Below, piece by piece: positions 2,988-24,095 of a stretch of DNA of 25,241 bases. This DNA comes from a virus, in IMG/VR virus record IMGVR_UViG_3300007734_000509, positions 1 to 25,241 of that record; one strand, written 5' to 3'. The notes under the pieces were generated by a model, which worked only from the letters and a program-made list of their open reading frames with translations, searched no databases and was not told where the DNA came from. Each line of letters starts with the position of its first letter. Within the stretch, counting starts at the first letter, position 1. The translations under genes and the position numbers were made by a program.

Positions 2988-3185
2988 ATGACCTTTCAAG
3001 AAGCGGTAGCACACTTTCATAACTCAAGACGTAAGATGGCATATGCCTTAGACATATCTATTCAGGCAGTTCAGAATTGGGCAAAGAATCCTGAAAAGCC
3101 AATTCCAAATAAACGAGCAGAACAAATTGAAGAAGTGTTAATTAAAAGAAGACAGGCAGAAACAATTCCGCAAGCAACAGAGTAA
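2988..3185 (+). CDS. Cro-like helix-turn-helix regulator
   Basis: This 65-residue protein has the layout of phage Cro repressors: TFQEAVAHF, then a helix-turn-helix RRKMAYALDISIQAVQNWAK (residues 14-33, recognition helix IQAVQNW), followed by a PIPNKRAEQIEEVL helix. It starts behind AAGGAGAGCAAG and is the first gene from the rightward promoter. It probably binds the symmetrical site between the two promoters to lower early transcription. No CI-type repressor or integrase gene is visible in the window, so whether the phage is temperate cannot be judged. Confidence 0.8.
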   Translation: MTFQEAVAHFHNSRRKMAYALDISIQAVQNWAKNPEKPIPNKRAEQIEEVLIKRRQAETIPQATE

Positions 3186-3194
3186 GGGGATTAT

Positions 3195-3785
3195 ATGAGA
3201 ATTAAAAATTGGGAAAGGTTTCAGCATTACACTCCCATGAATCCACGTTTTCAAAAAAAGATGACTTGGTTTAAAGTTTATGGCGATGATTTATTGAACG
3301 ACCCTGACTTTATGAACCTTTCAGACGAATGTCAAGCTATGCTAGCAAAGTGCTGGTGTCTTGCTAGCAGAAAAAATGGTGAATTACCAGATATAGATGG
3401 CATAGCTTTTGCCTTAAGAAAGGATAAAGCCTTTGTAATTAAGACTTTAGGTAAGTTATCATCATGGTTGCTAGCAGAAGGCTATCAGCTTGCTACCATA
3501 GAAAAAGAAAAAGAAAAAGAAAAAGAAATATCTATAGTTCATTTTGATACATTTTGGAATTTGTATCCAAGAAAAGTTGCTAAAGATTTATGTCTTCAAA
3601 AATGGAAGTCAAAGAAACTTGACAAAATAGGTGAACAAATTATTAATCATGTTAAAGTTATGAAAGAAACAAAACAATGGAAAGATAGTGATGGTCAATT
3701 CATTCCTATGCCATTAACTTATATAAACCAAGCAAGATGGGAAGATGGTAAAAAAGTTAAAAATGTTTGGGAAGGTGGCATTTAA
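3195..3785 (+). CDS. O-like replication initiation protein
   Basis: The 196-residue product has two domains joined by a charged linker. The N-terminal half (about 1-100) resembles the winged-helix of phage replication organisers (MTWFKVYGDDLLNDPDFMNLSDE...). The linker is EKEKEKEKE (103-111). The C-terminal half carries FDTFWNLYPRKVAKDLCLQKW (117-137) and PLTYINQARWED (173-184), the pattern common to phage initiator/helicase-loader tails. This matches lambda O, where the first half binds origin repeats and the second recruits the helicase. The gene contains candidate origin repeats exactly between the two domains. The next gene, a DnaB-like helicase, overlaps it at TAATG. Confidence 0.78.
   Translation: MRIKNWERFQHYTPMNPRFQKKMTWFKVYGDDLLNDPDFMNLSDECQAMLAKCWCLASRKNGELPDIDGIAFALRKDKAFVIKTLGKLSSWLLAEGYQLATIEKEKEKEKEISIVHFDTFWNLYPRKVAKDLCLQKWKSKKLDKIGEQIINHVKVMKETKQWKDSDGQFIPMPLTYINQARWEDGKKVKNVWEGGI
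3340..3530. other. candidate replication origin inside the O-like gene
   Basis: TGCTAGCA occurs at 3340, 3362 and 3469, with a near-copy TGCTACCA at 3491. Both pairs are exactly 22 bp apart, and related TGCT/GGCT words lie midway at 3351 and 3480, giving an 11-bp step. A purine tract of four GAAAAA copies (3501-3524) follows. The word falls in two different reading frames, so protein sequence does not explain it. Repeats followed by an A-rich tract in the middle of the initiator gene is the layout of the lambda origin. Confidence 0.6.
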
Positions 3786-4702
3786 TGAATTTAGGTCAAG
3801 TAATTGATAAACTCACAGTTACTCAAGATACAGTTACAAAATTTTATAACGAAGGATATGGACATGCAGAGTTTAAGGTTAAAAGTACGGATATATTTGC
3901 TGATGATTTGGTCAAGTATTTTGGTGAGGAAATTCATAGTGGCAAATCACTTGGCTGGGTTAAGACGGAAGATAAGTTTAGGGTTAGGGCTTCGGAACTA
4001 ACTATTCTTACTGGTGTATCAGGTCATGGTAAGTCTATGTGGTTATCACAAGTCATATTGTCTATGATGAAACAGAATACTAAATGTTTAATAGCTTCTT
4101 TAGAAATGCGACCTGTTTTAACATTAGCTCGTATGGTGACACAGACATTAGGTTCACCAGAGCCAACAGATGAATATATACATAAGTTTTGTGAACGTGC
4201 TAAAGACAAGTTATATATTTACGATCAAACAGGTGTAACTACTTCACAAGATATGATTGCTACGTTATACTATGGAAAACATATTTTAGGTGTAGATGTA
4301 TTTGTTATAGATAGTTTGATGAAGCTGAATGATATATCTGAAGAAAGTTTAGATGCACAAAAAAGATTTGTTAATACTTTGGCAGTAGTATGTCGTGATT
4401 TAAACATACACATATTTTTAGTGGCTCATACTCGTAAAATGAAAGATGAAACTGATATACCTGATGCAACAGATTTGATGGGCTCAAGTCATCTGCGTAA
4501 TTTATGTGACTCACTTATCCTATGCTGGCGTAACCGCAGTAAAGAAAAATTAATAGAGGTAGGAAACACATCTGAAGCAGAATTAAAGATTATTCCAGAT
4601 GCAAAAGTTTTCGTTCAGAAGCAACGTAATGCTCAATGGGAAGGTGCGTTTAACTTTTGGTATGACCAAAAATCATTAAAATATTTAGAATCACCAAAAT
4701 GA
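3785..4702 (+). CDS. DnaB-like replicative helicase (RecA-fold ATPase)
   Basis: This 305-residue protein contains only the ATPase half of a DnaB/T7 gp4-type helicase plus a short N-terminal segment. Walker A is GVSGHGKS (77-84), the SLEM motif is at 105-108, Walker B is VFVID (172-176), and VAHTRK (213-218) plus GSSHLRNLCDSL (233-244) are the later DnaB motifs; the C-terminal KQRNAQWEGAFNFWYD is also typical. It would unwind DNA at the fork after loading by the O-like protein. I use ATG 3785, which overlaps the upstream TAA and follows GGAAGGTGG, rather than an in-frame TTG at 3767. The full DnaB N-terminal domain is absent. Confidence 0.87.
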   Translation: MNLGQVIDKLTVTQDTVTKFYNEGYGHAEFKVKSTDIFADDLVKYFGEEIHSGKSLGWVKTEDKFRVRASELTILTGVSGHGKSMWLSQVILSMMKQNTKCLIASLEMRPVLTLARMVTQTLGSPEPTDEYIHKFCERAKDKLYIYDQTGVTTSQDMIATLYYGKHILGVDVFVIDSLMKLNDISEESLDAQKRFVNTLAVVCRDLNIHIFLVAHTRKMKDETDIPDATDLMGSSHLRNLCDSLILCWRNRSKEKLIEVGNTSEAELKIIPDAKVFVQKQRNAQWEGAFNFWYDQKSLKYLESPK

Positions 4703-5450: not shown

Positions 5451-5649
5451 AGGTTCTACGAGAAGACCGTTGTTAATTTCTGAAACAGAAATAGAAAGCA
5501 ATTGGAACAAAATATTTAAACGAAAAGAAAACAGTCCTGACGTATCACCACACGCTTATGAATATGAATTAAACAAGTCCACAGGTGAAGTAGAAAAACG
5601 TTTTAAAGAAGGATTTGAAAAACCTAACGGAGATCAATTTGGCGACTAG
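5443..5649 (+). CDS. hypothetical nin-region protein, 68 aa
   Basis: I choose TTG 5443 because the product then begins M-GKGSTRRP, a start I recognise from many small phage proteins, and AAAGGA lies ten bases upstream; a TTG at 5422 is possible. The protein is highly charged with a conserved-looking ESNWNKIFKRK segment. It overlaps the end of the YbcO-like gene and the beginning of the next gene. Function unknown. Confidence 0.55.
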   Translation: MGKGSTRRPLLISETEIESNWNKIFKRKENSPDVSPHAYEYELNKSTGEVEKRFKEGFEKPNGDQFGD

Positions 5650-5953
5650 TCCAACGCAGTTAAGTATCAAGAAGTTAAAAAAAGAAGGTTATCTAGTTGC
5701 TATTACAGAGAAGTGGAATCACTTTTGTAATATACGCCAAGACATGTGGGGATTCTGCGATATACTTGCTATCAGAGAGAATGAAGTATTAGCGGTACAG
5801 ACCACATCTGCTAGCAACATGTCAGCAAGGGCAAACAAGATAGCTGATAGTGAGAACGTTGGCATGGTAAGAAAGTCAGGTATAAAAATACATATTCACG
5901 GATGGATCAAGAATGGTAGAAAATGGGAATGTAAGGTAATGGACGTATCATAA
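5639..5953 (+). CDS. PD-(D/E)XK nuclease-like protein, possible resolvase
   Basis: With TTG 5639 as start (GGAG six bases upstream) the product has 104 residues. The sequence VAITEKWNHFCNIRQDMWGFCDILAIRENEVLAVQTTS contains a conserved Asp (FCDILAI) and a beta strand ending in Q-T-T where classical nucleases have E-x-K, followed by an alpha helix and IHIHGWIKNGRKWECKV. This resembles a common phage group with a restriction-endonuclease-like fold. Its place in the nin region would fit a Holliday-junction or DNA-branch nuclease. Activity is uncertain because the E-x-K is changed. Confidence 0.55.
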   Translation: MATSPTQLSIKKLKKEGYLVAITEKWNHFCNIRQDMWGFCDILAIRENEVLAVQTTSASNMSARANKIADSENVGMVRKSGIKIHIHGWIKNGRKWECKVMDVS

Positions 5954-7172: not shown

Positions 7173-7420
7173 TATTTGTTCTCCTGTATAGGTTCAAATT
7201 TAGGGCAAGTATAGTCTTCGTCATAATCAATAGCGTTTTTAATAGAATATTCAATAAGATTATAAAGCTCTTCCCCATATTCAGTATTGCGAGTGCCATC
7301 TTCATTGTCAGGGTCGTGCTCAATACATTTTTTAGCAATTCCAAAATGGTCTACAATGCTAAAGTAAACCTCTTGGGTAATAGTGCATACTTGGTTTAAA
7401 TCTAAAATATCTGTAGTCAT
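7172..7420 (-). CDS. hypothetical acidic protein, 82 aa
   Basis: This acidic, soluble protein (MTTDILDLNQVCTITQEVYF...) starts at 7420 in a TAATG overlap, behind AAGGAGAAC. Its last codons (ENK, stop) themselves carry the ribosome site for the next gene. Two regions, CIEHDPDNEDGTRN and NAIDYDEDYTCPKFEP, are rich in Asp/Glu. Function unknown. Confidence 0.65.
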   Translation of the reverse strand: MTTDILDLNQVCTITQEVYFSIVDHFGIAKKCIEHDPDNEDGTRNTEYGEELYNLIEYSIKNAIDYDEDYTCPKFEPIQENK

Positions 7421-18604: not shown

Positions 18605-19249
18605 ATGTATCAAGGTAAAAGGCATCACAATTGCAAATTATCTTATGAAAATGAATTAAAGGTTATAGATAAATATAAAGAAGGTTTAAGTTTAGAAGCT
18701 GTAGGTAAATTGTTTAATGTTAATTTTGTAACCATTAGGAATATTCTTAAAGGTAATAAAATAGAACGTAGAAAACAAGGCAATAAACATAAACTATTTG
18801 ACGAAGAATTTACTAAAACAGTTATTGATTTATATAATAGTGGGGTCAGTCAAGAAAAGATAGCAACACAATTTCATACATCACAAACAAAAATATCAAG
18901 ACTATTACAGTTTAATGGTATTAATTGTGGCATAAAAAAAGGTGAAAACCATCATTCTTGGAAAGGTGGTAAGCATATTCAGAATGGATATGTATTTGTA
19001 TCAATTACTAAAGACTCGCCTTATTCATTTATGGCAATAGGCAACGGGTATATATTAGAGCATAGGTTAGTAATGGCACAGCATTTACAAAGACCTTTAT
19101 TCAAAACAGAAACAGTACATCATATTAATGGGAACAAAGAAGATAATAGTATTGAAAATTTACAATTAAGGCAGGGTAAACATGGAAAAAACCAAGTATT
19201 TATTTGTTGCGAATGTGGCTCAAAAAATATTAAACCATGCGAACTGTAA
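18605..19249 (+). CDS. free-standing HNH homing endonuclease
   Basis: The 214-residue protein has two helix-turn-helix units (LEAVGKLFNVNFVTIRNILK near 30-49; VSQEKIATQFHTSQTKISRLL near 81-101) for target recognition, and an HNH catalytic part EHRLVMAQHLQRP...VHHINGNKEDNSIENLQL (about 152-188, His172-His173, Asn175, Asn181). A final CCECGSKN segment may hold a metal. Such genes spread by cutting related genomes that lack them. It has its own consensus promoter and AGGAG ribosome site and sits between two tail genes. The following gene lacks a clear ribosome site, as expected if an insertion broke an older junction. Confidence 0.88.
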   Translation: MYQGKRHHNCKLSYENELKVIDKYKEGLSLEAVGKLFNVNFVTIRNILKGNKIERRKQGNKHKLFDEEFTKTVIDLYNSGVSQEKIATQFHTSQTKISRLLQFNGINCGIKKGENHHSWKGGKHIQNGYVFVSITKDSPYSFMAIGNGYILEHRLVMAQHLQRPLFKTETVHHINGNKEDNSIENLQLRQGKHGKNQVFICCECGSKNIKPCEL

Positions 19250-21165: not shown

Positions 21166-23619
21166 ATGTCAATTATTGGCTCAAATGTATTAGCAGGTGC
21201 TAGTGGACAAGCTGGATATAACCTAAACAATTCTTTAAGATATAGAAGTAGTGCAAGTGCTTATCTATCAAGAACTCCTACAGTTGCAGGTTCAAGAACT
21301 ACATGGACATGGAGTGGCTGGGTAAAAAGAGGAGCTATTAGTGCAACATCTTCTATTTTTTCAGCAGGTAGTGGAGCAAATATAACTGAATTATTTTTTA
21401 CAGCAGCAAATATTTTAAGGTTTTATGATTATATTTCTAGTTCATACGCTACTAATCTTGAAACAACTCAAGTATTTCGTGACCCTTCAGCTTGGTATCA
21501 TATTACTGTTGTTTACGATACAACTCAAGCAACTGCGGCTAATAGAGTTAGATTATATGTAAATGGTAATCAAGTAACTTCGTTTAGTTCAACAACATAT
21601 CCTGCACAAAATTATGCTAGTGGCATAATGAATTCAACAACTGCTTCAGCTATTGGAGGAAATGCAGGAACAGGATACTTTGATGGTTACATGACTGAAA
21701 TAAACTTTGTTGACGGACAAGCCCTAACACCATCATCATTCGGTGAAACATCTACAACTACAGGCACATGGATACCTAAAGCCTACTCTGGTTCTTATGG
21801 CACTAATGGGTTTAAATTAAACTTCTCTGATACATCTGCTGCAACTGCTGCCGCTATAGGTAAAGATAGTTCAGGTAACGGAAACAATTGGACACCTAAT
21901 AACATATCTGTAACTGCTGGCACAACCTATGATGCTATGACAGATGTGCCTACTAATACAAGTGCGACTGTGGCGAATTATGCGGTGATGAACCCATTAA
22001 TGAAATTTGGTTCTAATTTAAGTTGGAACAATGGTAATCTTCAATTAGTAAAATCATCTTCAAGCACACAAGACCACACTTATGGAACTATTGGTGCATC
22101 TAGTGGCAAATATTATTGGGAAACAACAATAACAGCTTTTGCTGGTAGTAGTCCTTATATTTATTATGGTATTGCAAGAGGATTAGATACTACAACAATT
22201 TATGATAATACTGCTATTTGGTATGCTTCAGACGGAACAAAATCAAACAGAGCATCAGCAAGTTACAATCAAGCATATGGCTCATCATATACAACAAACG
22301 ATGTTCTTGCAGTTGCTCTTGATTTAGATGCTGGAACTATTACATTTTATAAAAACAATGTAAGCCAAGGTGTTGCTTATAGTAATTTAGGTTCATATCC
22401 AGGTTTATACATGGCTTATATAAATTTTGATGGAACTTCAGTTACTGCAACAACTGAATGGAATTTTGGTCAACGACCATTCACCTACACACCACCTACA
22501 GGCTATGTAGCACTCAATACCTTCAATTTGCCAACACCTACTATACTGCAAGGTAATAAGTATATGGATGCAACGCTATGGACAGGTGCAGGTGCTTCAA
22601 CTATGACCATAACTAATACGGCTGGATTTAAACCTGATATGGTATGGGTAAAAAGTAGAAGTAATGCTTATAGTAATCTTGTATGGAATTCAATAGTAGG
22701 TGTTGGTAATACTACAATGCTTGTTACAGATACTACAGCTGCGGAAGGTTCTTATTATGGAAATGCTAATTTAACATCATTTAACTCTAATGGTTTTTCT
22801 ACAGGAGCTACTTCAGGCACGAATGTATTAAATGCAAATGGAGTTACTAATGTAGCATGGCAATGGCAAGCAGGTCAAGGCTCAACATCATCTAATACTT
22901 CAGGCACTATTACATCTACTGTATCTGTAAACACAACTGCTGGGTTTAGTGTGGTGACTTATACAGGAACAGGTGTAGCTGGAAATAAAACAATTGGTCA
23001 TGGACTTGGTGTTGCACCATCTATGATTATTTTAAAAGATAGGGATACTGCATCTTCAGGCGGACCTGGTGCATTAGGTGCTAATGATTGGTTTGTTTGG
23101 CATAGTAGTTTTGCAAATGTTAATTCTATTTTGGGATTAAACTCTACAGTTGCAACACAAACTACTTCTGGGTTTTGGGGTGCATCTGTTCCATCATCAA
23201 CAGTATTTGGTATTAATGGCACTTTAGCTTCATTAAATGAAAGTGGAGATAGATATTTAGCTTATTGCTGGGCAGCTATATCAGGCTTTAGTGCATTTGG
23301 TTCTTACACAGGTAATGGTTCTGCTGATGGGCCGTTTGTATTTACAAACTTCCAACCTAAATATGTAATGATTAAAATTTCATCAGGTATTGAATCATGG
23401 TATGTATATGATTCAGTTAGAAATACATATAATTTAACTAATACAGTTTTAAGTCCAAATGATTCAGCAGCTGAATATACTGCTAGTGCATCTGTATTAG
23501 ATTTATTATCTAATGGATTTAAAATTAGAGGTGCTGCAGGTGGATTAAATGTATCTAGTGCAACATATATATATGCTTGTTTTGCAAGTAATCCCTTTAA
23601 GAATTCTAACGCACGCTGA
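21166..23619 (+). CDS. large lectin-like tail protein (LamG, SPRY-like, DUF7483-like)
   Basis: This 817-residue protein is a chain of sugar-binding-type beta domains. Residues about 24-195 form a LamG/concanavalin-like domain (TWTWSGWVKRG; AWYHITVVYDT; RLYVNG; GYMTEINFVDGQAL). About 270-450 look SPRY-like (HTYGTIGASSGKYYWE; ALDLDAGTITFYKNN; EWNFGQRPF). About 470-817 hold two or three repeated units with GFSVVTYTGTG...IGHGLGVAPSMIILK and FVFTNFQPKYVMIKI, similar to DUF7483, ending YIYACFASNPFK. It presumably recognises surface glycans. Its stop overlaps the next start by one base. Confidence 0.82.
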   Translation: MSIIGSNVLAGASGQAGYNLNNSLRYRSSASAYLSRTPTVAGSRTTWTWSGWVKRGAISATSSIFSAGSGANITELFFTAANILRFYDYISSSYATNLETTQVFRDPSAWYHITVVYDTTQATAANRVRLYVNGNQVTSFSSTTYPAQNYASGIMNSTTASAIGGNAGTGYFDGYMTEINFVDGQALTPSSFGETSTTTGTWIPKAYSGSYGTNGFKLNFSDTSAATAAAIGKDSSGNGNNWTPNNISVTAGTTYDAMTDVPTNTSATVANYAVMNPLMKFGSNLSWNNGNLQLVKSSSSTQDHTYGTIGASSGKYYWETTITAFAGSSPYIYYGIARGLDTTTIYDNTAIWYASDGTKSNRASASYNQAYGSSYTTNDVLAVALDLDAGTITFYKNNVSQGVAYSNLGSYPGLYMAYINFDGTSVTATTEWNFGQRPFTYTPPTGYVALNTFNLPTPTILQGNKYMDATLWTGAGASTMTITNTAGFKPDMVWVKSRSNAYSNLVWNSIVGVGNTTMLVTDTTAAEGSYYGNANLTSFNSNGFSTGATSGTNVLNANGVTNVAWQWQAGQGSTSSNTSGTITSTVSVNTTAGFSVVTYTGTGVAGNKTIGHGLGVAPSMIILKDRDTASSGGPGALGANDWFVWHSSFANVNSILGLNSTVATQTTSGFWGASVPSSTVFGINGTLASLNESGDRYLAYCWAAISGFSAFGSYTGNGSADGPFVFTNFQPKYVMIKISSGIESWYVYDSVRNTYNLTNTVLSPNDSAAEYTASASVLDLLSNGFKIRGAAGGLNVSSATYIYACFASNPFKNSNAR

Positions 23620-24095
23620 TGGGTAAACTTATAGACATGATAGGTAAGAAGTTTAATAGACTTACCATTGTTTCTAGAGCTGCTAATGAAGATACCAGAG
23701 CAGCGTGGAATTGTGTTTGTGACTGTGGAAACACTATAACTCTTAATGGTAAGCAAATAAGAAGTGGTCATACCAAGTCATGTGGTTGCTATCGTAGAGA
23801 TGTAACTTGCCCACAACAAGGTAAATCCAATACTAAACATGGTTTATCAAGAACTAAAGGTTATGCAAGGTTTCATAGTCGTTTAAGAGAAATTGCAGAA
23901 ATTAGACAAAGACCTAAATGGGCTAACCTAAAAAAGATTATGGAAATATATGTAAATAGACCTGAAGGTTATCATGTAGACCATATCATACCTCTACGAG
24001 GAAAAACAGTATCAGGACTTCATGTAGAAAGTAACTTACAATACTTACCAGCATTAGAGAATATGAAGAAACATAACAAATTTATAGGAGTGTAA
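23619..24095 (+). CDS. HNH homing endonuclease with zinc-finger region
   Basis: The 158-residue protein has an N-terminal zinc-ribbon-like region typical of phage homing nucleases (DMIGKKFNRLTIVSR; WNCVCDCGN; SGHTKSCGC; Cys32, 34, 36, 55, 57), a linker, and a C-terminal HNH core YHVDHIIPLRGK...NLQYLPALENMKKHNKF (Asp121, His122, Asn139, His152). Unlike the first HNH gene, this one starts inside the stop of the fibre gene (TGATG), so its expression is tied to late transcription. It closes the fibre block on the right. Cutting specificity unknown. Confidence 0.85.
   Translation: MGKLIDMIGKKFNRLTIVSRAANEDTRAAWNCVCDCGNTITLNGKQIRSGHTKSCGCYRRDVTCPQQGKSNTKHGLSRTKGYARFHSRLREIAEIRQRPKWANLKKIMEIYVNRPEGYHVDHIIPLRGKTVSGLHVESNLQYLPALENMKKHNKFIGV

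Follow-up and report, generated by a model that had tools for sequence, protein, structure and literature searches.

To our knowledge, replication origins that lie within a gene are known among phages chiefly from lambda and its kin. Plasmid iterons usually step two helical turns, not one. In PMC5043065 and PMC7466680, the lambda origin is described as working by iteron binding, opening of an A+T-rich region and helicase loading. According to PMC7466680, a P27 lambdoid plasmid whose iterons were altered with the O protein unchanged yielded fewer than 10 transformants. The locus described here resembles the origins of iteron plasmids (P1, RK2 and others), as presented in PMC5043065, in having helix-phased direct repeats beside a candidate opening region, but those are plasmid origins, whereas the array here forms part of the reading frame of a phage initiator. 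Literature searches, which covered few subscription papers, returned no published description of the word lattice reported here.

The DNA under study, hereafter the window, is the whole stretch of 25,241 nt of the IMG/VR virus record IMGVR_UViG_3300007734_000509. Judging from sequence comparisons, positions 3340-3528 of the window are very probably a phage replication origin located inside its own initiator gene (probability about 0.85).

The initiator gene and its repeated words

The genes around the array are arranged in the order cro, initiator, helicase and NinB (Table 1). The product of the cro-like gene matches P22_Cro at 29.8 bits, slightly under the Pfam cut-off of 30.2. The initiator is composed of an N-terminal winged-helix domain (N-domain), an EKEKEK linker and a C-terminal initiation-protein domain. 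Its C-terminal half matches phrog_9474 (7.5e-17) and phrog_270 (2e-12), both phage 'replication initiation protein', and a weak match to phrog_26426 ('replication protein', 6.3e-04) covers its N-terminal half. The winged helix is predicted to contain helices at residues 44-58, 67-74 and 78-87, within a block of pLDDT about 86-90 over residues 41-90. A structure search with the predicted initiator gave no match at E<=0.001 and no confident structural neighbour, and when PDB sequences were searched with a profile, the three matches were weak and to unrelated molecules (best E 0.023). The helicase ORF opens at a TTG at 3767; its likely start is the ATG at 3785, which overlaps the initiator stop, and the match of its product to phrog_239 (DNA primase/helicase) covers the helicase half only. 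Elsewhere in the window, two ORFs among the structural genes (18605-19249 and 23619-24095) resemble HNH endonucleases, and their likely counterparts by position in MW202481 are annotated 'hnh endonuclease' and 'hnhc'.

Table 1. Coordinates of the genes, words and tract at the initiator locus of the window
Feature	Position	Strand	Remarks
Cro-like regulator gene, 5' of initiator	2988..3185	+	P22_Cro 5.1e-07; phrog_409 (transcriptional regulator) 8.4e-08
O-like replication initiator gene, 196 aa	3195..3785	+	Matches to phrog_9474, phrog_270 and phrog_26426
Word 1, TGCTAGCA, pair 1	3340..3347	+	Seen in the sequence; inside invariant run 3339-3370
Weak midpoint word TGCTGGTG, 11 bp past word 1	3351..3358	+	5/8 matches; invariant in seven genes
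Word 2, TGCTAGCA, pair 1	3362..3369	+	Invariant in seven genes
Word 3, TGCTAGCA, pair 2	3469..3476	+	Absent from L005 and L006
Midpoint word GGCTATCA, 11 bp past word 3	3480..3487	+	TGCTATCA in L005, L006 and MW202481
Word 4, TGCTACCA, pair 2, degenerate in the window	3491..3498	+	Exact TGCTAGCA in L004, L005, L006 and MW202481; TGCTAGCT in L003
T-free A/G tract (AGAAAA repeats), candidate unwinding element	3500..3528	+	AGAAAA x4.8; encodes linker
DnaB-like helicase gene, directly 3' of initiator	3785..4702	+	DnaB_C 5.2e-12; phrog_239 9.1e-47

The initial annotation had pointed to four words in the initiator gene, and all of them are present, TGCTAGCA at 3340, 3362 and 3469 and TGCTACCA at 3491, forming two pairs with an identical internal spacing of 22 bp. 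The weaker copies that it placed at the 11-bp midpoints are uneven: the one at 3480, GGCTATCA, has 6 of 8 matches, or 7 of 8 when scored by the family word TGMTAKCA, and the one at 3351 has 5 of 8. Two of the six lattice positions of the window are weak. The claim that two reading frames are used also stood: counted from the start codon at 3195, the words at 3340 and 3469 share one phase and those at 3362 and 3491 another, so that within each pair the frame differs from one word to the other. The purine tract said to adjoin the words was likewise found, as 4.8 copies of AGAAAA at 3500-3528; it starts 2 nt past word 4 and encodes IEKEKEKEKE between both initiator domains. Further exact words occur in the window at 5767, 5809 and 20559. 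The first two, TGCTATCA and TGCTAGCA, lie 42 bp apart within the ORF at 5615-5953, and MW202481 has further words at 7242 and 7353, where no genes are annotated.

The words in the initiator gene of the window exceed what the protein sequence demands. When synonymous codons were permuted within the gene with the protein sequence fixed, none of 500 permutations reached the three exact TGMTAKCA words observed (0.07 expected), and the chain of three words at 11-bp steps also exceeded 500 of 500 permutations. Meanwhile, words with at most one mismatch are not in excess over the whole window (18 versus 13.9 expected; 12 of 100 shuffles reached 18), the initiator locus is not among the top four sites when the window is scanned word-blind for lag 11, and in a word-blind test of the window gene alone none of the lags 7 to 30 reached p<=0.02. 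Taken alone, the array of the window is weak, being suggestive and not decisive, and the case therefore rests on relatives.

Conservation in relatives and across the family

Six close relatives of the window gene were found by protein similarity (78-97% identical), and all six keep pair 1. Positions 3339-3370 (32 nt) are the sole invariant run of at least 14 nt across the window gene and the six relatives, and synonymous invariance was observed at 8 of 9 codons of pair 1, compared with 60 of 114 outside both pairs (Fisher p=0.035). In L005 and L006 word 3 has been lost, but the midpoint is TGCTATCA, and in MW202481 all three positions of pair 2 are filled by words on the 11-bp lattice. The initial annotation had named relatives that keep the protein and lose the repeats as contrary evidence; this is seen in part, in two distant ones, L007 (51% identical) and phage Venkman (44%), which have the protein without the words. 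Its suggestion to look for co-varying repeats in relatives led to a positive result, in that two sister words occupy the same place in the gene on a shared 11-bp lattice. As for the existing annotation of this gene, it is missing from the GenBank records of L027 (MW202640) and L088 (MW202462), and in MW202481 the annotated start, 4520, is 42 nt inside a conserved frame beginning at 4478.

The family set was gathered by N-domain searches of viral contigs and named phages, and the word was not used in the selection. From each of two viral-contig searches 80 loci were kept, one of the samples being the best-scoring 80, and the 192 loci of the protein-selected set yielded 177 genes of at least 115 aa with the N-domain, the window included. 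Chains of at least three words at 11-bp steps are present in 97 of 176 protein-selected initiator genes, a count that allows one mismatch to a consensus derived from the same data; 63 of the remaining genes have two words at 11 bp, and 16 have none or one, with no 11-bp pair. At the control steps of 9, 10, 12 and 13 bp, a chain of three words was found in 0 of 176 genes. Because the consensus for the chains comes from the same data, a word-blind lag test is cleaner than the chain count. Applied to 67 representatives below 80% identity with a codon-permutation control, it gave a mean z of 2.75 at lag 11, where 24 of the 67 reached p<=1/300. Lags 22 (5/67, z 1.39) and 32 (4/67, z 0.96) were weaker, and every other lag reached this level in at most 3 of 67. 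Lag 11 is individually non-significant (p>0.01) in 32 of the 67 representatives, which stay in the count. As positive controls, the test recovered the annotated lambda iteron spacings of 20, 23 and 24 and spacings of 23-24 in P22 gene 18. An 11-bp step is about one helical turn, and the order of the lags, 11 and then 22, is consistent with phasing at one or two turns.

The words were also searched for directly. In IMG/VR, three copies of TGCTWKCA were found in 96 stretches at 11-bp steps, versus 15 at 10 bp and 11 at 12 bp. The array lies inside an ORF with the N-domain in 80 of the 95 stretches examined among the 96 at 11 bp, versus 4 of 15 (10 bp) and 2 of 11 (12 bp), and a GA/CT tract lies within 80 nt of the array in 62 of the 95. 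In seven complete phage genomes, the best site of the word-blind lag-11 scan is the initiator gene in six, and in MW202481 this gene is second best. Queries of the TGCTAGCA class matched the N-domain in 9 of 50,697 named phage records; in metagenomic viral contigs, at least 593 of 600 and at least 551 of 600 candidate stretches match the N-domain queries, and an N-domain search of plasmids gave no match. Named relatives with both N-domain and lattice are Xanthomonas phage PBR31, Iodobacter phage PhiPLPE, Cylindrospermopsis phage Cr-LKS3 and Limnohabitans phage DC33. Term searches of the main text of the PBR31 paper (PMC10975493) and of PMC3391216, which covers PhiPLPE, found no origin-of-replication or iteron term. 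The record of phage DC33 (L028, PQ492659) is 39 kb long and has tailed-phage relatives, yet carries an Inoviridae taxonomy line, which is probably a mislabel.

Contigs of bacterial genomes were considered as a source of prophages, but 0 of 29 arrays found there lie in an ORF with the N-domain, so these arrays are other things and were excluded from the support. Among them, chromosomes of Robertmurraya (L390, L403, L412, L413, L415) have TGMTAKCA-like arrays with 11-bp steps outside any N-domain ORF, possibly an unrelated, genus-specific regulatory repeat; in L412 and L403 the arrays sit between what we take to be a ComF-like ORF and a small zinc-finger-like ORF. At four other loci (L337, L294, L298, L343), in which no N-domain was detected, arrays of TGCAAGCA/TGCTTGCA at 11-bp steps stand beside GAGGA or CTGATTCC/CTGACTCC repeats, and these are perhaps further initiator families of the same architecture.

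One clade of the family carries TGATATCA (or GATATCA) on the lattice in place of TGCTAGCA. The change is symmetric, at palindrome positions 3 and 6, and the family form TGMTAKCA covers both the word of the window and that of the sister clade. Both words share the same nucleotide register, starting 263, 274 and 285 from the domain start in L316 and 263 and 274 in L205, and 263 is the commonest array start in the family set. This bears on the explanation that the repeats are a by-product of coding, in which Leu-Ala-Ser-rich helix peptides with CTA/GCT/AGC/GCA codons yield the word by chance and common descent keeps it. LAS and LLAS peptides do recur in part of the family and encode the word, and the close relatives share ancestry. 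However, the sister clade keeps the lattice with a different peptide (DDINVIS versus DASTMLAS); a step of 11 is not divisible by 3, so that the repeats pass through all frames; and the fixed-protein codon permutations are exceeded at lag 11 only, those at 22 and 32 being weaker. We regard a coding by-product as scarcely credible.

On a tree of the N-domain with 224 tips, a single change of word class is seen. The two classes are separated perfectly by residue 12 of the domain: all 67 unique domains that go with TGATATCA have Phe there, and all 157 that go with TGCTAGCA have Tyr. Since there is a single word change on the tree and one sample consists of the best-scoring 80, residue 12 can be put forward only tentatively as a specificity switch. 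A broader picture is possible, though somewhat doubtful when all of its parts are taken together: the loci would form one widespread class of phage origins, mostly of uncultured Proteobacteria phages plus one cyanobacterial phage, in which a TGMTAKCA lattice holds one initiator per helical turn; the peptide would be bent to the DNA lattice, the word would have changed at all repeats together as the sister clade arose, and residue 12 would help to recognise the altered base pair. A lattice that carries either of two sister words would make a clean system for the study of co-change between initiator and site where the sites encode part of the initiator.

The array and tract as a putative origin

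The equivalent of the window tract in relatives is T-poor DNA of the GAGACAGAG type, GA-rich rather than A+T-rich. In 60 of 67 representatives the linker is uniform in its codon usage: Thr is ACA in 155/167 cases (142/486 elsewhere in genes), Arg is AGA in 70/77 (150/841 elsewhere) and Glu is GAG in 302/337 (376/868 elsewhere). Simple-repeat slippage may be an alternative or added source of this uniformity. The length of the T-free run was rejected as a sign of selection, as it is no longer than under codon permutation (p<=0.05 in 5 of 67 representatives; p=0.50 in the window).

An origin made up of initiator-binding words within the initiator gene, as proposed by the initial annotation, is the best reading of the locus, and the sister words on one lattice support it. 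The N-terminal winged-helix domain would bind the words, with neighbouring molecules lined up along the same face of the DNA at intervals of one helical turn, and the initiator assembly would open or capture the adjoining A/G tract. The C-terminal domain would then recruit the DnaB-like helicase, which is the product of the adjacent gene. By analogy with lambda, transcription from a promoter on the cro side may assist.

Alternatively, the words could be operators, at which the initiator or the Cro-like protein binds and blocks transcription of the initiator gene, with no origin involved. The words are palindromic and lie near the cro-like gene, and either protein could bind the arrays. However, Cro-type operators usually sit at promoters; no exact word is found in the cro promoter region of the window, and the arrays hold a fixed place adjoining the A/G tract throughout the family. 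Operators are thus quite unlikely.

GC skew was dropped as a test of the origin: the minimum of the window, 2975, falls at a switch of gene direction and the complete genomes disagree, with minima no more than about 2.1 kb away from the array in five of seven and far from it in two. The skew is uninformative here because its switch coincides with divergent transcription. The disagreement in two of the seven genomes would fit arrays that serve some other function of the replication module (e.g. partition, an incompatibility handle or a recombination hotspot) while replication starts elsewhere. The location of the array in an initiator gene, with the tract adjoining and the helicase gene next door, and a layout that agrees with ori-lambda and the P22 origin make this very unlikely. 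Should the lattice prove to be the origin, sequence alone would show where replication begins in a family nearly absent among named phages, and since the same lattice recurs in many uncultured phages, their start points would be predictable as well.

Comparison with the origins of lambda and P22

The locus had been described as lambda-like, with the sites where the lambda origin sits in O. In its layout this is so. As in ori-lambda, an array of iterons inside the initiator gene, that is, several repeats that resemble initiator sites and go beyond coding constraint, is followed by a T-poor, purine-rich tract of the coding strand, here the strand-asymmetric AGAAAA tract; P22 likewise has a T-poor, purine-rich stretch past its iterons. 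The module running from cro through the initiator to a further replication gene is also shared, but the gene after O is P, whereas here the next gene encodes a helicase. As to position, pair 2 falls between the domain and the linker, as the lambda iterons do, but pair 1 falls within the winged-helix coding sequence. The likeness does not extend to word length and step. Long iterons as in lambda-type origins (about 18-19 bp, at steps of 20-24 bp) were not found here: ori-lambda has four annotated 18-bp iterons at steps of 20, 24 and 23 bp, and the window has 8-bp palindromes at 11 or 22 bp.

Nor does it extend to the DNA-binding domain. Alignment of the N-domain with lambda O and with P22 gp18 detected no homology (hhalign probability 0.1% and 0.3%, respectively), and neither lambda O nor P22 gp18 matches phrog_26426 at E<=0.01. 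P22 gp18 does match phrog_270 (3.5e-09), one of the PHROGs of the C-terminal half of the window initiator, and L205 and L291 reach the O-like phrog_678 through the linker and the C-terminal part. As the DNA-binding domain has no detectable homology and word length and step differ, we class the locus as a probable in-gene iteron origin outside the lambda O family.

In the case of P22, an O-like initiator gene (gene 18) holds the origin and, as in the window, is followed by a DnaB-like helicase gene (gene 12) and ninB. However, the P22 repeats are spaced at 23-24 bp, and pairwise BLASTP detected no homology between the gene 12 helicase and that of the window. The best reading is of an in-gene iteron origin that would work like ori-lambda, with shorter words and a shorter step.
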